NCBI RefSeq assembly: GCF_007859855.1
Contig: NZ_SJPK01000017.1
Span: 1-64,000 of the forward strand
Reading direction: 5' to 3'
Source of the DNA: Allorhodopirellula solitaria
GTDB taxonomy: Bacteria > Planctomycetota > Planctomycetia > Pirellulales > Pirellulaceae
DNA: 64,000 nt
Numbering within the stretch: position 1 is the stretch's first letter; each line of letters opens with the position of its first letter. A program made the position numbers and the translations under genes. Below the pieces are notes generated by a model. It saw only the letters and a program-made list of their open reading frames with translations. It was not told where the DNA came from and did not search any database. Positions 11,495 through 32,185 of this stretch are shown here, piece after piece.

Positions 11495-13285
11495 ATGCAG
11501 TTTCTCGATCAGCCCACTCGCAATCTTTTTTTCACCGGCAAGGGCGGCGTGGGGAAAACGTCGATGGCGTGTGCGAGTGCGGTTCAGCTGGCCGATCGCG
11601 GCCTACGCGTGCTGCTTGTTTCGACTGATCCGGCGTCCAATCTCGATGAAGTTTTGGGCACGCCCTTGGCGAGTGAACCGACGCCGGTCGAGTCCGTCCC
11701 CAACCTGTACGCGGTCAACCTGGATCCTGAGGTGGCAGCTCAGGACTACCGAGAGCGGATGGTTGGTCCCTACCGTGGCGTCTTGCCTGATGCAGCTGTA
11801 GCGAGCATGGAGGAACAGTTTTCGGGTTCCTGCACGCTGGAGATCGCGGCATTCGACGAGTTCGCCAAACTGCTCGGTGATCAAGAAGCGACTTCGCAGT
11901 TTGATCACGTCGTTTTCGACACGGCTCCGACCGGGCACACCCTGCGTCTGCTGACGCTGCCTTCGGCTTGGTCGGGATACATCGACAACAACACAACGGG
12001 CACGTCCTGCTTGGGCCCGCTCGCTGGATTACAGGCCCAGACATTGATTTACAAGCAAACGGTTGATGCGTTGGCCGACGGCGGCTGCACGACCTTGGTT
12101 TTGGTCACCCGTCCAGAAACCTCCGCGTTTCGCGAGGCAGGGCGGACCAGCGGCGAGTTACAGGAGCTCGGCGTGCACAATCAGCATCTGATCGTCAACG
12201 GTATCTTCACCAGCCAAACACCCGAAGACACGATTGCGGCGGCGATGCAGCGGCGTGGTGAAGAGGCGATCGCAGCCATGCCCGACGTGATCGCGGGGCT
12301 GGACCGCTCAACCGTTCCGCTGGCCAGCGGCGGACTGATGGGGATCGATTCGCTGCGGAGTGTCGGTACGACTGGCGGCACGGCAGGCCTTGAATCGATC
12401 AATGACAGCAATGATCTGCTGGAGGCAGAGCCCACCTCGGCCGCTGGACTCGGCTCACTGATCGATGATCTCGCCGCCGTTGGCCATGGCGTGATTCTGG
12501 CGATGGGCAAGGGAGGAGTCGGCAAGACGACGGTAGCAGCTGCCGTGGCGGTCGCGTTAGCCGAGCGTGGTTTCGACGTGCACCTGTCGACGACAGATCC
12601 CGCTGCTCATGTCTCGGCCCTGATCGCGGCGGACGAGCTCGCAGGATTGACCGTTGGGCGCATCGACCCGGTTCAGGAAACCGCCGACTACACCGACGAA
12701 GTGATGCAAACGGCAGGCAAAGACTTGGACGAGGAGGGCAAAGCGTTGCTCGAAGAGGACTTGCGTTCGCCTTGCACAGAAGAAATCGCTGTGTTCCGTG
12801 CGTTCGCCCGAGCGGTTTCCGAAGGTGCGGACCGTTTCGTTGTCTTGGATACAGCACCGACGGGGCACACCATTCTTTTGCTCGATTCCGCACTGGCGTA
12901 CCACCGGGAAGTGACACGGCAATCAAGCCAGATGCCCGAGGCGGTTGAGAAGTTGTTGCCGCGACTGCGTGACCCCGATTTCACGCGAGTGCTCGTGGTG
13001 ACATTGCCTGAAGCGACTCCGGTTCACGAAGCGGCACGGTTGCAGGAGGACCTACGCCGTGCTGAGATCGAACCTTTCGCCTGGGTCATTAATCAAAGCC
13101 TCGTGCCACTGAGCGTCACGGATCCGGCGCTCCGCCAACGCCGCCAACGTGAGTTACCGTTCATCAACGAGGTGCGATCGACACTGGCGACTCGCGTGGG
13201 GATTGTTCCTTGGCAGAGCGAAGCTCCCACTGGATTGTCGGGGCTACGCCGCATCGTCGCTGTGGATTCCGCACCGGCGAGCTAA
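11495..13285 (+). CDS. arsA: ArsA arsenite/antimonite-stimulated ATPase
   Basis: A 596-residue two-domain ArsA. P-loop A1 ([12 protein letters not shown]) is at residues 13-23 and P-loop A2 ([10 protein letters not shown]) at about 337-346. Each half has the signal-transduction motif DTAPTGHT. The three metalloid-binding cysteines are present: Cys113 (SGSCTLE), Cys172 (TSCLGP) and Cys427 (SPCTEE). The second of two nearby ATGs (11495) is chosen, because AGGAG lies 7 nt before it but only 1 nt before the first. ArsA normally drives an ArsB or Acr3 pump; none is encoded here. It must work with a pump elsewhere in the genome, or the pump gene was lost from this locus. Confidence 0.94.
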
Positions 13286-13332
13286 CAAACGAATTGACTG
13301 ATACCTTATTTATCAAAGAAAGGTGGGCTCTC

Positions 13333-13770
13333 ATGGCTCCAAAGCAGGTTCTATTTCTATGCACGGGCAACTCCTGTCGCAGCCAGATGGCAGAGGGTTG
13401 GGCGAGGCATTTTCACGGCGATGAAATCGAAGTGCACTCCGCTGGCATCGAGGCGCACGGGATGAACCCCAATGCGATGCAAGTGATGCAAGAGGCTGGC
13501 GTGGATATTTCGGCGCAGACCTCGAAACTCGCCAGTACGCTGGCAGAAACACCGCTCGATTTGGTGGTCACGGTGTGCGGTCATGCGGACGAGAATTGTC
13601 CGGCATTTCTAACGGATGCGAAACTGGTACACGTCGGTTTCGACGACCCACCGAAACTCGCCAAGGAAGCGGCAAGCGAGGAAGAGGCTCTCGATGAGTA
13701 TCGCCGGGTTCGCGACGAGATTCGCGATTTTGTCCGAGACCAACTCTTGGATATGCTTCCGGGACGTTAG
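13333..13770 (+). CDS. arsC: Thioredoxin-coupled arsenate reductase
   Basis: A 145-residue enzyme of the low-molecular-weight phosphatase type. The P-loop CTGNSCRS places the nucleophile at Cys10 with Cys15 and Arg16. The redox pair is Cys82 and Cys89 ([11 protein letters not shown]). These positions match thioredoxin-dependent ArsC of the staphylococcal type. It reduces arsenate to arsenite through a Cys10-Cys82-Cys89 relay. The start has AAAGGTG 8-9 nt upstream, 47 bp after arsA. It completes an R-D-A-C locus that makes arsenite but has no local exporter. Confidence 0.93.
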
Positions 13771-14045
13771 GAACGCGAGAGTAAAAAGTGTCGTATTGGA
13801 CGAAGCATCGAGCTGTTGGATACCCAGAAGTATCCCGTCGTGAATGATCTTCAACCCCATTCGGGGTTGGCTCTTGCGTTTGGTGACCTATCCGGTGGTG
13901 TTCGCTTACGCTCAAACCACCGGCTATTTTCTTCAACGCCTTCGGCGTAGGGAAACTTGTGGGGGATCTACAGATCGTTGCCTCGTCCACCACAGAAAAG
14001 CCTTCGCAAAATCCGCCACTTATTGGCTTGCCGTTGGCGGACCGG
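13771..14045 (+). repeat. Dispersed hairpin repeat, copy after arsC
   Basis: It begins immediately after the arsC stop with GAACGCGAGAGTAAAAAGT, nearly identical to the sequence directly after the uppS stop at 60147. Modules in order: the hairpin CAACCCCATTCGGGGTTG (13851-13868), the hairpin CCGGTGGT...ACCACCGG (13892-13923), CGGCTATTTTCTTCAACGCC with a small CGCCTTCGGCG hairpin, and a right end CCGCCACTTATTGG. It separates arsC from the convergent DUF11 gene. Confidence 0.7.
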
Positions 14046-14066
14046 CAACGGGCTACCGCCCTAATG

Positions 14067-14117
14067 CCGGTGGTGAAACGGCCTGTCGATTAAATCGACA
14101 GGCCGTTTCACCACCGG
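14067..14117. terminator. Perfect 51-nt palindrome between convergent genes
   Basis: Two 25-bp arms (14067-14091 and 14093-14117) around a single central A form a perfect inverted repeat. It lies 28 bp beyond the end of the minus-strand DUF11 gene and downstream of the plus-strand ars locus, so it could stop transcription from both sides. No U-tract follows, so it may instead act as a transcript-protecting hairpin or cruciform. Confidence 0.6.
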
Positions 14118-14145
14118 ACCCATGAGTTTCCCCACACCTCGCCGA

Positions 14146-17100
14146 TCAACGCGCCATGAACAGGCGTTTGGAGAGTGTGGCGGGGGGATGGATCGAGACG
14201 CTGGTTTGGTCGTCTTCCTCGGGATCGTGGTTGCCCGCGGTGCTGTCGATATCGATCTCATTGGTTTCGAGGACTTCGATCTCAAACGTCTTCAGAGTGA
14301 GCGTATCGACACGGAAGGTTAGGATGAGCTGCTTGCTCGAGTTGGCGGCGACTTCGCCGGCCGTCCACTGTTCCGAGGGCGCGTCGTAGACACCCGCTGG
14401 ACTGGCGTCGATCAACGTCAATCCTTCGGGAATCGTCACACCGACAACGACGCCGGTGGCATCGGAGATTTCCCGGTCATCGGCAGCCGCAAGCGGTGCG
14501 GTGGAGGACGATCCGTTGTGAACGGTCACGGTGACCTCTACGGTATCGCCGAGTTCAATCTCCTCTGGGATCGCCGATGCCTCGACGCTGACGTCGATGA
14601 CTCGCGGGATCACCTGGACACTCGCCATATCATCTTCGCTGGGGTCGCTATTGCCTGGCGTGCTGTTCGGATCGAGTTGATCGGCGGCGATGATCTCGGC
14701 GACGTTCGTTACGATGTTGGCGCTCGTCACCCGGGCTCGGATCTGCAATTGAGCGGAGCCTCCCGACTCGAGCTCTGCGATCGTCCAGTGGTTCGTCGAC
14801 GCGTCGAAGTCGCCCGTCAGTGCAGTGACCTGTACATCGGAAAGACCGACTGGGAGTGCGTCGTTGACAACGATATTGGTCGCGGTATCGGGCCCGGAAT
14901 TATTGACGGTAACCAGGAACGTAATAATGTCGTTCTGGTCCGGGGTGGCATTGTCGACGGTCTTCGTCAGCGACAAGTCGGACTGGGCAATTTCTAGCGT
15001 GATGGCTTGGTAGTCATCTTCGCCAGGACCGTTGTCGGGCGTGCTATCGCGATCGGGCTGATCGGCGGCAATCACCTCGGCGATGTTGGTAATCCCGCTG
15101 GCGAGGATCTCGTCGACGATACTGGGGTCGGGCGAGACGGTGGCGTTCAGAATCAGCTCCCGGGTCTCGCCGGCAGGGATTTGAGGGATCGACCAATCGC
15201 CTGTTTGTGGATTGTAGTTTTCTCCGCTCGAGGGTGTTGCCGAAACAAATGTCAACCCAGCGGGCAGCGGGTCGGAGACGACCACGCCGGTTGCATCGGT
15301 CGGTCCATCGTTGCTCACCGTGACGCGGTATTCGATCGTGTCGCCGACGTTGGCGCGATCGGAATCGCTCGTTTTCGTCAACGCGAGATCGATCAACTGT
15401 GGGACGAACGAAACCGAGGCGCTGTCGTCTTCGTCGTTGTCACCGTTGCCGGGCGTGCTATCAGGGTCGAACTGGGAACTGGCGATGATTTCAGCGAAGT
15501 TGGTTCGCGTGATCGGCTCGTCGCTGTCGTTGGCACTGCGGTCGACCGTTGCGGTGAGCGTGAGCACGGCCGTACTGCCGGACTCGAGTTCGTCGATTCG
15601 CCAAATCCGGTCGTCTGGATCGTAGCTGCCGGTTTGCTCGTCGGCACGAATGTCAGTCAATCCCGGTGGCAAGGTATCGAGCACCTCAATGCCCGCGGCG
15701 GTATCTGGCCCGTCGTTGCGGACGGTCAGGGTGAACACAACATCGTCGCCAACGTTGGGTGTGTCATCGTCCACTGTCTTGGTCAGCGACAGGTCAGCAC
15801 TGGCGGGCGTGACCGTGACGCGGGCGGTATCGTCTTCGCCATTGTCGAAACCGTTATCGGGCGTGCTGTCGCTATCGAATTGGTCCGCCGCCACCACTTC
15901 GGCGAGGTTCTCAAAGGGTTCGGTCGAGATCACATTGCCTCGAATCTCCAGCGATTGCGATTCGCCACTGGCCAGAGCGCCGACATTCCAGAGGCCGGTT
16001 AGGGGCGAAAAGGCGATGGGGTGGTTCGATGAGAGGAACTCAAATCCATCGGGCAGCTCATCGGAGACAACAACACCGGTGGCGTCATCGGGCCCATCGT
16101 TGAGCACCTCGAGTGTGAAAGTGACCTCGCTACCGACCGATGGTCGCAGCGGCATGTTGGTCTTCTGCAGCGAGAGATCGATGACGGGCGTGGACAGCGT
16201 GGCGCTGGACTGATCGTCTTCGTCAGGCAGTTGATTGTTGGGGGTCGAATCGGGGTCGTCCTGATCCACCGAAATCAGTTCGGCCGTATTGGTGAACATC
16301 CCCGCCAACTCGACGTCAGCAACAAGCTGCATCGATACACTTTGCCCCACACCGAGTGTGGCGATGGTCCACAGCCCCGTGTCGGACGCGTACTCGTTGT
16401 CGTTATCACTCTGACTATCCGAGAGGTAGGTCAGACCCGGTGGCAGCGTATCGGCGATGACAATATTCGTGGCCACATCGGGTCCAGCGTTCTGGACGAC
16501 GATCTCGAACCGGGCATTCTCACCAATGTTGGGATTGGGCGTCAGTGTGGTCTTTTCGACAGAAAGGTCCGCGATCGGCACGCGTACGCTGACGGAGTCC
16601 TGGTCATCCTCACTCTCGACATCGTTGCCGGGTGTGCTATCGGAATCGGTCTGATCGACGGACATGACTTCGGCGGTATTGAGCACGCCCGTAAAGATTG
16701 GGTCATCTGAGGGCAACCCCGCGATGGAATCGATCCGCCCATCAAGCTTCAGAGTCGTCGACTCGCCGGCCGCGAGCGAGGGAATCGTCCAAAGTCCGGT
16801 GCTCGAGACAAAGGACCCCGACGCGGGCTCATTGCCGACGAGCGTCACCTCGTCGGGCAAGCGATCGGCGACGACGATGTTGGTCGCGGTATCGGGGCCA
16901 CCGTTGGCGATTGTAATCGTGTAGCTGAATGTTTCACCGGCGCGGGGGGTGGGGTTATCGGTGTCCTTGGTCAGCGACAGATCGATCTGTTCGGCTTGAG
17001 CCACCGCGGCTGCTTGGTCGTCTTCCTCTTCGACACCGTTGCCCGGCGTGCTGTCGGGGTCGGGTAGACTCGCCGAGACAATTTCCGCAACGTTGTTGAT

Positions 17101-26373: not shown

Positions 26374-26660
26374 TTTGCAAGCTCGTGATTTTCGTGATTT
26401 CCATTCCTGTGCTTTTCAACTTGGCGTTGGGTAACGACCGCTTGTATGAGCATTCACGCAGAAGGACTGATTGTCTCGAGATGCATTGACATTGATTGCG
26501 AATTTGAGCCCTACCTCGATGGTTCTTCTCGGAACTTAGTGGCAGGCATCCAGGATGTTGGATTTTTGAGGCATAGGCTCCTGCGTCCAGTGAGCGAAAA
26601 ACGGATGCCCGGCAAGGGCTCATCCGACGGAAGCGTGCGCCCGAGGTTTTCAAGGATCGC

Positions 26661-26727
26661 GGTAGGGACGGCTGTTGCCAGCCGCCCCCCGCACAGATCC
26701 GTACGTGAGCCTTGACTCATACGGCTC
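26661..26727 (-). mobile_element. Group II intron 3' remnant (domains V and VI)
   Basis: On the minus strand, 26727 to 26696 is a 32-nt domain V-like hairpin. It starts GAGCCGTATGAG and ends CTCACGTACGGATC, with the AGC triad and the two-base CG bulge of group II introns. Directly after it, 26695-26661 forms a domain VI-like hairpin (GGGCGGCTG-GCAA-CAGCCGTCCC) followed by TACC. Upstream intron domains and the reverse transcriptase are missing: a transposase fragment begins about 60 bp away. A 32-nt domain V and a location at the end of an attC array suit the group IIC class, which is known to target attC sites. Confidence 0.65.
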
Positions 26728-26784
26728 CTCCGTCGGGTCAAACGATCGCGACACATCGTGTCGCTACCTGTCGTGATTTCCTGG

Positions 26785-27356: not shown

Positions 27357-27447
27357 GGATAACGTTGCGGATCACGCGGTCGCCGCGAGTGATCCTCCAC
27401 TTCAAAAATCACGACTCGGCGACTCGTCGTGCATCCGATGGTTATCC
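27357..27447 (-). other. attC-like recombination site 1 (attC1)
   Basis: A 91-nt imperfect inverted repeat between the outer cores GGATAAC (27357-27363) and GTTATCC (27441-27447). Inside, GCGGATCACG on the low side pairs with the complement CGGATGCACG of the high side, leaving one unpaired G; a second mismatch lies near CG/GTCGCCG. Unpaired bases on one arm are the hallmark of attC. The outer bases GTTATCCGT match the R' core of attC2, as expected for the two ends of cassette 6. Confidence 0.8.
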
Positions 27448-28074
27448 GTTCTTATGCCGCGAACCCCACCAACTCTCAAACCCGCGGCTAATGTCGAGAG
27501 ACACACCGAGATCCACGTTCCCCTGGAACGCGTTGAACAGGAAACTGCAAAGCCCTTGCCGAAAGACGCGGAAGCTGAGGTTGCGCGACAAAACGACAGC
27601 CTCCTGTTCTTCAGATGTGCGCCAAAAAAGATAGCACCCATTCGGGTTCAGACCCAAGTAGTTGTTGCCGATGTAACCCAGTGGCAACAGTCCAGGATTA
27701 GATGGATAGAACTCGTATGGTGAGGCCTCGTGAATGTTGCATGCAGCTCGTTGACAATCGTGGAACGCCTTCAAGTATTGAGAGTCCTCGGACAATGGAG
27801 CAGCACGCGGGTTGAAAAGATGTGAGTTGCTCGCTATTTCGACAGTGTTTCGGTAGACATTGCAGAACCTTGGAGTAATCAGCACCAAACTGCCCCCCCA
27901 CAAGCCGTCTCCGTAACGTTCAACCACCCGCTTGTGATCTTCGGGGAAGGAAATGCCAAGAGTTTCTTCCGCATCCTCCCATGAGCGACCGAACCCGTTT
28001 GAAGCTCCACGTATTGGAGGAACGACAAACGGCCGTCGCGGCGGAGGAACTAGTTGCGTTAGGTTTTCCACCAT
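27442..28074 (-). CDS. Integron cassette 6 gene: SUKH (SMI1/KNR4-like) protein
   Basis: A 210-residue protein with a SUKH-like core: WEDAEETLGISFPEDHKRVVERYGDGLWGGSLVLITP at about residues 31-67, followed by LPLGYIGNNYLGLN and CYLFWRTSEE. SUKH proteins often act as immunity proteins against nuclease and deaminase toxins. No toxin gene is adjacent. The ATG is 11 bp inside the cassette core at 28085-28091, and the stop codon lies within the R'' core of attC1, a tight fit typical of gene cassettes. The immunity role is an inference from the family. Confidence 0.7.
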   Translation of the reverse strand: MVENLTQLVPPPRRPFVVPPIRGASNGFGRSWEDAEETLGISFPEDHKRVVERYGDGLWGGSLVLITPRFCNVYRNTVEIASNSHLFNPRAAPLSEDSQYLKAFHDCQRAACNIHEASPYEFYPSNPGLLPLGYIGNNYLGLNPNGCYLFWRTSEEQEAVVLSRNLSFRVFRQGLCSFLFNAFQGNVDLGVSLDISRGFESWWGSRHKNG

Positions 28075-28084
28075 ACTGATTCAC

Positions 28085-28175
28085 GGATAACGGCAGACAT
28101 CACCGGGCACGAGCGGAAAGGCAACCATCGCCAAAACGCGTTTTCGAGTGCTCCGTGTGAATGTCATGGTTCTGC
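28085..28175 (-). other. attC-like recombination site 2 (attC2)
   Basis: A 91-nt site between the cores GGATAAC (28085-28091) and GTTCTGC (28169-28175). The low arm GACATCACCGGGCAC pairs with the complement of the high arm, GACATTCACACGGAGCAC, with extra unpaired T, A and A. The bases GTTCTGC match the R' core of attC3, defining cassette 5. Confidence 0.8.
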
Positions 28176-28252
28176 ATCTTTTTCAGCCTGTCAAGTGAAA
28201 GTCGCCCTGCGAATCGAATCGTCGCTCAAGATGTCGCGTCGCGTGAAATGGG

Positions 28253-28693: not shown

Positions 28694-28782
28694 GCAGAAC
28701 GTCCGCGATGACCGAGTCGCGGCATTGTGGTTTCCATTCTTAAACGCCTTATCCGCGACTTCGGTCCATCGCATGGTTCGTC
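28694..28782 (-). other. attC-like recombination site 3 (attC3)
   Basis: An 89-nt site between the cores GCAGAAC (28694-28700) and GTTCGTC (28776-28782). The low arm GCGATGACCGAGTCGCGG pairs with the complement of the high arm, GCGATGGACCGAAGTCGCGG, with one extra G and one extra A unpaired. This is the clearest attC fold of the array. GTTCGTCG matches the R' core of attC4, defining cassette 4. Confidence 0.85.
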
Positions 28783-28807
28783 GGTGCATTACCCATCCAT
28801 TGTCGCT

Positions 28808-29479: not shown

Positions 29480-29570
29480 GACGAACGTTGGCCATCAGCG
29501 AGCCGCGACGAGCGATTCAACCACTGCCAAAACGTATGGCACGCGGCTTCGTTGCATGGCATTGTTACGA
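29480..29570 (-). other. attC-like recombination site 4 (attC4)
   Basis: A 91-nt site between the cores GACGAAC (29480-29486) and GTTACGA (29564-29570). The low arm GCCATCAGCGAGCCGCG pairs with the complement of the high arm, GCCATGCAACGAAGCCGCG, leaving an extra G and A. GTTACGAG matches the R' core of attC5, defining cassette 3. Confidence 0.8.
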
Positions 29571-29849
29571 GTCTTTCAGTGTAGCGTAGTACCCGTCGGC
29601 TTGCCCGCGTCTTCGGTCCGAAACGAGCACTGCCCCACAGTCACCGATCTGTCAGGCGTCGGACAGTGCCCCGCAGGGCTGTCGCCGGAGAGTGCCTCGC
29701 AGAGCAGGCATTGGTTGATGCCCCGCAGGGCATGCGCTGGTTTTGTGTCCCGCAGGGCGGGCGTTGGTTGTCGTGACTCCGGCGTGGGACGATGCCCCGC
29801 AGGGCACACTTGGCGTTTCATCCACACTCGTCGTCAGCACGGCTTTGTC
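29571..29849 (-). other. Integron cassette 3 body: repeat-rich, no clear gene
   Basis: The DNA between attC4 and attC5, about 280 bp. It holds repeated palindromes around CCCCGCAGGGC at about 29668, 29720, 29749 and 29792, plus a degenerate copy near 29695. A minus-strand frame from an ATG at 29821 would code for about 81 residues with CPAGHRPTP-type repeats, but nothing shows it is translated. This may be a gene-free cassette, a regulatory cassette or a small RNA. Confidence 0.5.
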
Positions 29850-29939
29850 TCGTAACGTTACCAATCACCCGGCGGCGTCGAGAGATTGTCCATTTAAAAA
29901 CGCCCGACTTCGCCGCTCGGGTGCATTGGATGGTTCCCC
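29850..29939 (-). other. attC-like recombination site 5 (attC5)
   Basis: A 90-nt site between the cores TCGTAAC (29850-29856) and GTTCCCC (29933-29939). The low arm CCAATCACCCGGCGGCG pairs with the complement of the high arm, CCAATGCACCCGAGCGGCG, leaving an extra G and A. GTTCCCCG matches the R' core of attC6, defining cassette 2. Confidence 0.85.
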
Positions 29940-29944
29940 GCTCA

Positions 29945-30430
29945 TCAATACGTGTAAATCGTCGCGTCGTCAAAGCCATCCTCAATTGTTGCAGAAGCCT
30001 CAACGTGATAATCGGAAAGTCGGGTGTCGGAGCCGCCCCAGTCATGCCCGCCACCATTGAAATCGATCCGAACGGTATCAGAATCGTCAAGCGGACGAAT
30101 CGTAATCATGTAAGGGCAAATCAGCGAATCACGTATCTGCTTTGCAGTTATCGTTTGCGGCGGATCCTCCTGGCTCAGCAGCGTCCTAAATTGCGAAAGA
30201 CGATCTGCGGCGACGAAATCGCGAAATTTCTTGAACCATGAGTTGTGCGTCATCCAAATGCGATTGGCAGTCGGCGTGAGACTTGCCAGCAATTCGTCGG
30301 ATCGTATCTGGTTCGTGTCGAACGTGAAGCCAACCGTTTGGCCGTTGAAATTGCGGTCCGCGACAAAAGTCTGGAAATGTTCGTCCCAGTGAATGCCGTC
30401 AAACTTCGTGTTGACTTTTGAACCGCCCAT
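29945..30430 (-). CDS. Integron cassette 2 gene: DUF2262-like protein
   Basis: A 161-residue soluble protein. The pattern FQTFVADRNFNGQTVGFTFDTN, a middle SWFKKFRDFVAADRL, and the end DFNGGGHDWG...YHVEASATIEDGFDDATIY recall DUF2262, a family that often occurs next to toxins as a possible immunity protein. The start is 14 bp inside the core at attC6 and the stop is 5 bp from attC5, so the gene fills its cassette. The family call is by eye. No toxin partner is visible. Confidence 0.6.
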   Translation of the reverse strand: MGGSKVNTKFDGIHWDEHFQTFVADRNFNGQTVGFTFDTNQIRSDELLASLTPTANRIWMTHNSWFKKFRDFVAADRLSQFRTLLSQEDPPQTITAKQIRDSLICPYMITIRPLDDSDTVRIDFNGGGHDWGGSDTRLSDYHVEASATIEDGFDDATIYTY

Positions 30431-30443
30431 GCTTTCTTCAGTC

Positions 30444-30536
30444 GGGGAACGTTACGCGTCAGCGGGGACGGGCGAAAGACTTGCAAGCATACCAAATCGC
30501 ATGCCACCCGTCCTCCGTTGCACGCGATGGTTATTC
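30444..30536 (-). other. attC-like recombination site 6 (attC6)
   Basis: A 93-nt site between the cores GGGGAAC (30444-30450) and GTTATTC (30530-30536). The low arm GCGTCAGCGGGGACGGG pairs with the complement of the high arm, GCGTGCAACGGAGGACGGG, leaving an extra G and A. GTTATTCG is repeated as its complement CGAATAAC at 30909-30916, which marks the start of the first cassette and places attI there. Confidence 0.82.
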
Positions 30537-30827
30537 GCCGTTTTTGGGGTCGGGAAAATTGACGGAGGAAGCGGGGCGTCGCTTGGTAACCGCAAGTACG
30601 AACAGTGCAGCAAGGCACGCCAACAGTGTGATCGCTGGTCCGGTAAACTCGGAAGCATAGGCGTCCATGCAGTTCCGCGCAATCTCGTACGGGTTGCCTT
30701 CGCCAGATTCGACCGCGTCGTACACAGGACGGACAAACACATATCGCAATTCGGTCGCGATCCAGATGCAAAACGCAGCGTAAGAGCCGATCAGCAAAGC
30801 GAGTATGGCGAGAGTAATTCTGATCAA
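30531..30827 (-). CDS. Integron cassette 1 gene: small two-helix membrane protein
   Basis: A 98-residue protein with membrane segments at about 4-24 (ITLAILALLIGSYAAFCIWIA) and 63-82 (GPAITLLACLAALFVLAV). No domain is recognised. The only available start is TTG, since a stop lies just upstream in frame; the ribosome binding site is poor. Its stop overlaps the R'' core of attC6. As the first cassette after attI it would be the most recently inserted and the best placed for expression. Confidence 0.55.
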   Translation of the reverse strand: MIRITLAILALLIGSYAAFCIWIATELRYVFVRPVYDAVESGEGNPYEIARNCMDAYASEFTGPAITLLACLAALFVLAVTKRRPASSVNFPDPKNGE

Positions 30828-30904
30828 GCGTCAACTATGTTCACGAGGTGTTAAAAATGGCTCGAGGTGTAATCAACGACCCAGGTGAGAGATCAGTACT
30901 ATTT

Positions 30905-31044
30905 CAGTCGAATAACGAGGTAATTATCGCCGGTTGTGGAGGTGATAAGTTGATCCTCGGGGGTGTTATCGCCGGTTGGACCTTCGGTTCCCTCGGTGAC
31001 ACGGGAAGTGTTATCGCCGGTTCGAGGGAGTCTTATCGCCGGTT
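30905..31044 (-). other. Candidate attI site with four 12-bp repeats
   Basis: The core GAATAAC (30910-30916) pairs in sequence with the GTTATTC end of attC6 but has no attC-type inverted repeat beside it, as expected for attI. Four copies of TTATCGCCGGTT follow at 30924-30935, 30965-30976, 31011-31022 and 31033-31044. They could be integrase-binding direct repeats, which known attI sites also carry. The site lies between the first cassette and the divergent intI remnant. A frame through the repeats was judged non-coding. Confidence 0.65.
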
Positions 31045-31351
31045 GGCGTGGCTTGAGTATGAGGGCTCTGGATTCTTGGGTCAAGCAAAATCTTGGATCA
31101 ATTTTGAGGCGTAAGGCTTGACCTGTTTTGAGGACATGCGAAGAATCGGCTCGGTAAAGCTGCGGCGATGCGGTACGGCGGGGAGCACGAATTAACTCCT
31201 GGGAACGTCAATAGCTCGCATTGGAAATGGCCGTGGGAGAGGGCGGTGCTCTTCGCTGGAGGGCTGCGTGAGACTGGGACGGAATCTGCTGCGTATGATC
31301 GACTTGGTGAGTTTCTCTTCGCCGAGTCGGATGATTGCAAAGGACGATGTC

Positions 31352-31609
31352 ATGGCAGGCGTTAGTCAGTCTGAGACCACGTGGCACGATCAGCGTGACA
31401 AGTGGGCGAAGATTTGGTTTGAGAAGCTCAGTCGCTTTCATGGTCGCAAGCCCCAAGCGACCTGGGAATTCACAGCTGACGATGTGATTGCCTTCCTTCG
31501 CGACCACCTGCGGCGCAAGACACCGGGGTGGAAGCGTCTGAAGATCGTTCATGCCGGGATCTGCGACCCACTTCGGGGTCGACGTTTCACGACCAACAAG
31601 ACTCCGTAG
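31352..31609 (+). pseudogene. Truncated integron integrase (intI), N-terminal domain only
   Basis: The frame from ATG 31352 (AAAGGA 7 nt upstream) reads QRDKWAKIWFEKLSRFHGRK, FTADDVIAFLRDHLRRKTPG and WKRLKIVHAG. This is the SAM-like N-terminal domain of tyrosine recombinases, and WKRLKIV is typical of integron-type enzymes. After about 70 residues the frame runs into a copy of the dispersed repeat (ICDPLRGRRF) and stops. The catalytic domain with its Arg-His-Arg-Tyr residues is absent. It is divergent from the cassettes, the normal integron layout. A recombinase from elsewhere would be needed to move these cassettes. Confidence 0.65.
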
Positions 31610-31710
31610 GTGGCGCTGCGCTGACCTACGGCAATTCTCTTCAACGCCTCCGGCGTAGGAAGACTTGCGGGGCCGACATCGATTAGATCGACAGTCCGCT
31701 ACGTGGGAGG
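31558..31710 (+). repeat. Dispersed hairpin repeat, copy interrupting intI
   Basis: It starts with GGGATCTGCGACCCACTTCGGGGTCG and continues with GTAGGTGGCGCTGCGCTGACCTAC and CTTCAACGCCTCCGGCGTAGG. The same modules occur in the same order at 41190-41275. It replaces the rest of the integrase gene. Confidence 0.7.
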
Positions 31711-31789
31711 GAAAGGGGTGAGATACAGTTTTCGCACTGATTTGATGCGCGGACTGCCCTCCCCGGAAGACTCGCTGAAGGCTCGTCTT

Positions 31790-31891
31790 GCGACCCTCCC
31801 GGCTTCGCCGGGCGGGTGAAGTCAATCGCTGAGTCACGATCACTTAAAAACTGCGACCCTCCCAGCTTCGCCGGGCGGGTGAAGTCGATCG
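31790..31891. repeat. Tandem GCGACCCTCCC...GGGTGAAGTC hairpin repeat
   Basis: Two copies of a 39-bp unit, at 31790-31828 and 31853-31891 (period 63). Each contains the hairpin CCGGCTTCGCCGG or its variant CCAGCTTCGCCGGG. The units lie in the 770-bp gene-free stretch between the intI remnant and the fad operon. They may act as transcript ends or REP-like elements. Confidence 0.65.
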
Positions 31892-32185
31892 TTTCTGCGC
31901 AGTAACTTAAATATTGTACGACCTGCGCAGGGGAGACGGGCGTGGGCCAATGGCTCGGCTCTCGCGGGGGTTGCTCGGCCTCCGGAGGAGTTGCGGACAA
32001 TCGTTGAAACATCATTGCATCGCCGGCTGCTGCGGATCACTCTCGGCGGCGCGTTGTGCTTTTGGGTGTGGTGTTCGGTCTCGGTTGACGCGCGCGATCA
32101 CGCGTATCGTCGCTTCCAGTCACATACTTGGGGATTGCTTTTAGGGGTGCGAATCAGCCCTAATGCGAAAATGGCGGTAATCAAC

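Follow-up and report, generated by a model that had tools for sequence, protein, structure and literature searches.

A conserved multi-box attI candidate with a predicted cassette promoter in Allorhodopirellula solitaria, dispersed in about ten copies, most of them without an integrase gene

Cassettes, core and repeat boxes at the locus

The stretch of Allorhodopirellula solitaria DNA analysed here, called the window, is 64,000 nucleotides long. It carries, from left to right, an array of cassettes with attC sites, a recombination core, a cluster of repeated boxes, two promoter-like sequences and a fragment of an integrase gene (Table 1). Contigs of this genome (G000) are designated below by C-numbers, C17 being the window contig, other genomes of the family by G-numbers, and individual loci by L-numbers. 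C12int is the array of the intact integron, and C12b another array of the same genome.

Table 1. Features around the candidate attI, in window coordinates
Feature	Position	Strand	Remarks
attC	27357..27448	+	
attC	28085..28176	+	only one of the six not used for the model
attC	28694..28783	+	
attC	29480..29571	+	
attC	29850..29940	+	
attC, nearest to core	30444..30537	+	
First cassette	30451..30913	-	second copy in C12b array, 3 differences in 484 bp
Core site GTTATTC	30910..30916	-	homology between platforms ends here; cassettes switch context here
Core, cassette part	30910..30913		
Core, common AAC/GTT	30914..30916		
Box 1, TTATCGCCGGTT	30924..30935	+	7 bp from core; presumptive L half of the simple site there
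Inverted box, GGTGATAA	30941..30948	-	GGCGATAA in several relatives
Box 2, TTATCGCCGGTT	30966..30977	+	
Conserved spacer, GGACCTTCGGTTCCCTCGGTGACAC..	30978..31004	none	mean conservation 0.94, same as boxes
Box 3, TTATCGCCGGTT	31011..31022	+	
Box 4, TTATCGCCGGTT	31033..31044	+	
Candidate Pc	31056..31084	-	TTGACC (31084-31079), 17 nt, CATACT (31061-31056); points at cassettes
Candidate intI promoter	31118..31146	+	TTGACC, 17 nt, AAGAAT; comparable bases noted visually in leaders of relatives
intI remnant, N-terminal part only	31352..31564	+	80% identity over 76 residues to intact G045 IntI; ends in a dispersed repeat

An attC model, for which five of the six window sites had been used, placed all six on the same strand and on the cassette side of the core. 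Four of them were folded, and their hairpins were better than those of shuffled sequences (z -2.1 to -4.9). Among the cassette proteins, one of 210 aa (27442-28074, minus strand) has a SUKH-1 (SMI1/KNR4) match with E 1.3e-5, just over the curated cut-off, and another (29945-30430, minus strand) weakly matches DUF2262, with a score that does not reach the curated cut-off. Towards the distal end of the array, 26656-26729 (minus strand) matches the group II intron domain RF00029 with 42 bits, for a gathering threshold of 40.

A scan of the window found TTATCGCCGGTT in four exact copies on the plus strand, with start-to-start spacings of 42, 45 and 22 bp. The first-pass annotation had reported four exact 12-mers spaced by 41, 46 and 22 bp in a repeat region that it delimited correctly, at 30905-31044; the number of copies and the last spacing stand, and the other two spacings were off by one. 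It had missed the inverted box, which sits between copies 1 and 2. All 12 other matches of the 12-mer in the window have 2 mismatches, and dinucleotide shuffling of 30905-31044, repeated 2000 times, never brought a 12-mer to 3 copies (the maximum was 1 copy in 1999 shuffles and 2 in one). The direct repeats stand on the intI side of the core, as in attI sites with accessory direct repeats. A stem-loop function of the repeats was considered and set aside: folding of 30905-31050 gave a z of -2.25, 5 of 200 shuffles being equally good, and the centroid structure mainly pairs box 1 with the inverted box.

The same annotation had described a GAATAAC core lacking the inverted repeat of attC, rightly so, as no attC-model match lies over it. 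The last four core bases come from the cassette. The full consensus GTTRRRY does not hold (GTTATTC in the window, GTTATCC in C12b, GTTCTGG in C3); only GTT is invariant, and likewise in 14 attC of the window's genome.

To the right of the boxes, only the N-terminal part of intI is left, and no match to TIGR02249 was found on the window contig, nor any NCBIfam or Pfam match of the remnant (P0001) at E 0.01. The window thus lacks the intact intI, with TIGR02249 above its cut-off, that defines a complete integron. The dispersed repeat at the intI break (31538-31678) has relatives at C12b (two places), C6, C8a and C9. Further on, 31789-31914 holds a tandem pair of 63-bp units with a CCCGGCTTCGCCGGG hairpin.

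Cassette junctions and linkage to the integrase lineage

The crossover point was located by comparing cassettes found in more than one context. At the junction of the first cassette, CGAATAAC is followed by GAGGTAATTATC in the window and by GGCAGCCATC, which belongs to an attC, in C12b, so that the divergence between the two contexts starts precisely at AAC/GTT of the core. Of a second cassette, ~610 bp long, there are five copies. Two adjoin attI, at C3 and C4, and three adjoin attC, two of them in C12b and one in C12int. At attI the junction is CAGAAC followed by GAGG; at attC, CAGAAC is followed by GTCG, GGTA or GTTG. In copies of the site from this genome and from relatives, the left edge of homology is the AAC, with unrelated sequence beyond. 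As the same cassettes are found at attI and at attC, and as they switch context after AAC, we concluded that cassettes enter exactly at the core, with the boxes on the other side. The site is in this respect the cassette insertion point, with crossover at GTT, that an attI should be. An attI should also adjoin intI; here the neighbour is a broken intI, and eight of the ten strong copies of the site in this genome have none beside them (see below).

Linkage to intact integrases was sought in relatives, with the IntI protein of G045 as query against 149 family genomes, a search made without regard to attI. Five proteins are at least 76% identical to the G045 type (three in G045, one each in G077 and G141), the next best being 63% identical. 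The G141 frame is cut, with 80% identity over residues 7-274, and the G077 protein has one internal stop but none in the integrase domain. An attI lies upstream of all five, scoring 159-161 bits in the three G045 cases, 155 in G077 and 89 in G141, and in the four G045 and G077 cases its left edge is 449-453 bp before the presumed start codon. Of 30 loci then searched, the other 26, with IntI 42-63% identical, gave six weak attI matches of 15-23 bits (G066 twice, G112, G127, G103 and the genome's own C12) and 20 times none. The attI is therefore present at close IntI and fades at lower identity, which means that the site follows the integrase lineage. The suggestion of the first-pass annotation, to look for the boxes beside intact intI genes of related planctomycetes, was in this way borne out. 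Its proposal of a candidate attI is well supported by this linkage, by the switch of cassettes at the core and by the position of the attC on the cassette side. At L139-L141 of G045, IntI carries a C-terminal extension of ~130 aa, and homology between most platforms ends just past its stop codon.

The only intact IntI found in the window's genome (C12:180843-181790; TIGR02249 413 bits for a cut-off of 265) is of another type, 49% identical in the N-terminal part and 57-58% overall to the cognate IntI. The attI of this intact integron scores 17.8 bits with the model; its boxes are altered, including TTATTACCGG, TTATCGCGGG and TTATCACCGG, and its core spacing is 4 bp instead of 7 bp.

Altered boxes were also counted upstream of 27 family IntI, three of 30 loci having been dropped with less than 500 bp of upstream sequence. 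The variant box ATTCTCACCG gave 59 sites at up to 2 mismatches, compared to 10 in equal lengths of intI. Forty-nine of them fall in 13 loci where IntI shares 51% identity or more with that of C12int (7 for the control), and 45 in 11 loci at 59% or above. The TTATCGCCGG form was only mildly enriched upstream of other IntI (37 versus 18), strict TTATCGCC-type boxes near other IntI lineages were found at 3 of the 30 best-scoring IntI loci, and at most loci no repeated 10-mers were seen beyond those of their shuffles. Multi-box attI sites thus seem widespread in this part of the group, and the box seems to change from one IntI lineage to the next.

Dispersed copies and probable cassette loading in trans

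The first-pass annotation had taken wide occurrence of the 12-mer away from integrases as evidence against an attI. It is indeed widespread, with 26 exact copies in the window's genome against 0 for the reversed control, but 21 of these lie in other copies of the attI unit. The five strays look like chance occurrences: one is in a terminator-like hairpin and one in an apparent rpoB leader, hairpin and gene being judged by eye, and three are inside open frames. The idea that the boxes serve a regulon elsewhere in the genome was rejected, the strays showing no such pattern. In other family genomes the 12-mer has mostly 0-3 copies, the same as the reversed control; exceptions without known attI include G128 (6 copies) and G087 (5).

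A sequence model of attI was then run on 12 genomes, partly picked for having the site, with 150 candidates scored per genome. In the window's genome it gave 14 matches: ten strong ones (above 80 bits), one partial, and three weak ones at two places. The strong loci are C17, C12b, C4, C3, C6, two in C8 near 139 kb (C8b), one in C8 near 37.5 kb, C13 and C9. Relatives had 15 matches in G045, 7 each in G106 and G141, 5 in G013, 3 in G112, 2 in G077 and 1 each in G037 and G115; none was obtained in G130, G091 or G087. The unit is therefore multi-copy in the window's genome, G045, G106, G013 and G141. By DNA similarity, the site is present in 10 of the 149 sampled family genomes, the window's genome included, against 78 of the 149 with an IntI at E up to 1e-60. 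A pattern scan of named genomes, which may omit the window's own, matched 4 contigs, all of Rhodopirellula maiorica SM1, and a scan of viral contigs gave no match. We also considered whether the solo copies are one fixed mobile element, and rejected it on account of their variable right end.

On the cassette side, one or more attC were detected at seven of the ten strong loci (the nearest one at C9 being weak); at both C8b copies and at C13 the attC model gave no match. At 11 of the 12 G045 loci L139-L150, the attI is accompanied on its cassette side by attC of the same strand, with a weak match at L149. At L141, at the end of C2 of G045, the attC array is on the strand opposite to that of the neighbouring attI, by inversion or assembly error. 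Two tandem arrangements were observed as well: at L044 (G000 C8, ~13007-15741), head-to-tail units of ~1.18 kb, each with a diverged cassette and a whole or partial attI, and at L147 (G045 C1), two 545-bp copies sharing 96.5% identity, which lie on the cassette side, further from attI than the attC detected there.

Of the ten strong copies, two have an intI remnant and eight have no intI beside them. The intI piece of the window was detected in its own genome at C17, C12:149390 (internally deleted), C12:181953 (intact, 49%) and C12:61011 (decayed), and nowhere else; a search with the full G045 IntI protein was likewise negative at the remaining eight strong loci. The window array, with 6 attC and no working intI in place, would be classed as a CALIN (at least 2 attC, no intI).

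Some copies devoid of intI nevertheless seem to have received cassettes. Over 607 aligned bases, the C3 and C4 cassettes show 2 mismatches and 6 gap columns (99.7% identical), whereas their attI are only 88.8% identical, and no intI was found at either locus. The C3 cassette, moreover, has 1 mismatch in 613 (99.8% identical) with the copy at C12int. The closeness of the cassettes, set against the distance between the attI sites, implies that the cassettes moved after the attI had diverged, and this points to cassette insertion at intI-less attI in trans, the acting integrase being probably the C12 IntI. Direct exchange of cassettes at attI was seen only at three of the ten strong loci, the window, C3 and C4. 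In G045, a first cassette 91.7% identical to an internal cassette of another array represents an older case. Homologous recombination might spread cassettes as well. Gene conversion may also occur, but leaves the GTT junctions unexplained.

A different history would make the intI-less copies dead relics: platforms duplicated, or arrived, together with intI, took cassettes and then lost intI, without any action in trans. Loss at several stages is indeed on display at the window, C12:149390 and C12:61011, and in the deletions shared between loci of G045, where three loci have one ~596-bp intI deletion with the same junction and three have another, across the intI start. These shared deletions imply that broken platforms were copied. 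The three strong loci without attC by the model (two C8b, C13) would also fit. We nevertheless find a relic origin doubtful in view of C3 and C4, where no trace of intI accompanies attI 11% apart and nearly identical cassettes, one of them a single mismatch from the copy of the intact integron. It accounts poorly, too, for the preservation of attI, which stays 81-94% identical to the window's while the sequence on its right has decayed (to 38-61% at C4, 32-41% at C3, 39-51% at C6 and 43-45% at C8b).

Proposed function of the boxes and significance of the dispersed sites

Conservation was examined in an alignment of 22 copies, all beginning at AAC. Nineteen keep four boxes (up to 3 mismatches each) and the other three keep three. 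The inverted box passes the same test only in G045-type copies, and is shorter in others. Boxes have a mean conservation of 0.94 and spacers one of 0.87, a difference that narrowly misses significance (p = 0.055), and the box 2-box 3 spacer equals the boxes in conservation. In the G045 copies and in C6, the inverted box stands 11 bp further from box 1, or roughly one turn of the helix; C8a, C13 and one G045 copy have lost the box 1-to-box 2 interval and kept core and Pc. In pairwise comparisons of six intI-bearing platforms, the conservation of attI exceeded that of the leader in all 15 pairs; against the intI N-terminus it was ahead in 13 of 15, level in one and behind in one.

The stretch contains 2 promoter-like sites, against 0.2 in shuffles. 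The predicted Pc marks the right end of the conserved unit. Its hexamers are found 17 nt apart in 27 of 33 copies (TTGACC in 26, TTGACG in 1, each with CATACT), copies which are related and do not make 27 independent cases. The six deviating copies comprise one with 16 nt, C4 with a changed -35, three G045 copies with a changed -10, and C12:61371 with a weak look-alike only. Core, boxes and probable Pc are taken to make up a conserved unit of ~180 bp.

We consider it quite likely that the stretch is the attI landing site, with cassette promoter, of a decayed planctomycete chromosomal integron, that the boxes are most likely bound by the integrase, and that the genome holds about ten copies, some of them loaded in trans. 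The order would be, from left to right, crossover core, box 1 as the L half, inverted box, three direct boxes and a leftward Pc. Judging from position and conservation, the cognate IntI would bind the boxes, core and box 1 forming the simple site and the other boxes accessory sites comparable to DR1 and DR2 of attI1, only more numerous. With the integrase gene broken beside the window attI, and some ten core-boxes-Pc units scattered over the genome, most without intI, some units would have received their cassettes after divergence of the attI, presumably from an integrase supplied in trans.

The main competing explanation keeps the unit as an attI and makes the boxes operators, by which a host regulator, or IntI as a repressor, would control Pc with no part in recombination. 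The first-pass annotation had itself named regulation of the cassette promoter or of intI as another possible role. An operator role is unlikely in our opinion: the predicted intI promoter lies clear of the boxes, attI and boxes vary with the IntI lineage, box 1 has the position expected of an L half, and the five stray 12-mers are not placed as a regulon would be. It draws some strength from the fact that every box lies between the predicted Pc and the first cassette, and from the resemblance of box 1 and the inverted box to a dimer site. In addition, PMC3108266 reports that planctomycete LexA does not use the E. coli motif, so that an unfamiliar SOS box could look like these boxes. That the repeat unit is instead an independent short dispersed element of the MITE or REP type, located next to cassettes by chance, is very improbable, for although it is multi-copy in five genomes (this one, G045, G106, G013 and G141) and an internal intI deletion shared by three G045 loci indicates copying of a broken form, it has no fixed right end, homology stopping at various points up to just past the intI stop, and its left end is the recombination core in most copies (C9 has lost the core).

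Among known systems, attI1 of class 1 integrons is similar in having a core with L and R halves and direct repeats. According to passages of PMC8946536 and PMC12901181, attI1 has L, R, DR1 and DR2, all four bound by IntI1, while attIA of Vibrio cholerae is without such repeats; attI1 is given there (PMC12901181) as 65 bp. The window site differs by its four direct boxes of one exact sequence and one inverted box, over ~120 bp, and by a predicted Pc beyond the boxes. CALINs, clusters of attC without integrase, can be mobilised in trans, as stated in parts of PMC12444791 and PMC9668308. The window array, with its 6 attC and no working intI, resembles them, except that arrays of the present kind keep their own conserved attI and predicted promoter, about ten such attI being present in the genome. 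Delta-attI cassettes of class 1 and 2 integrons, described in PMC12901181, also have attI sequence away from intI, which still recombines; there the attI piece replaces the attC of the cassette, whereas here a full attI with a predicted promoter heads its own array. The chromosomal integron of Rhodopirellula baltica, named in a passage of PMC3108266 that does not describe its attI, is likewise a planctomycete integron. Our literature search, which covered few subscription journals and is weak evidence of novelty, found no planctomycete attI of such kind, nor any genome with many intI-less attI.

In the usual picture, an integron has one integrase, one attI and one array. The present observations would be compatible with a distributed integron, in which many promoter-bearing attI pads, mostly without intI, would be loaded in trans by one or a few integrases, and in relatives a pad whose intI has an internal deletion would spread or persist non-autonomously; we regard the case for and against this extension as evenly balanced. 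If it is true, some ten conserved attI-Pc pads would provide many promoters that could express first-position cassettes at once, and some arrays now classed as CALINs would be loadable platforms. The attI sites also form a natural series, varying in box number (3 or 4), spacing and box sequence, that would make the role of accessory integrase sites testable outside class 1 integrons.
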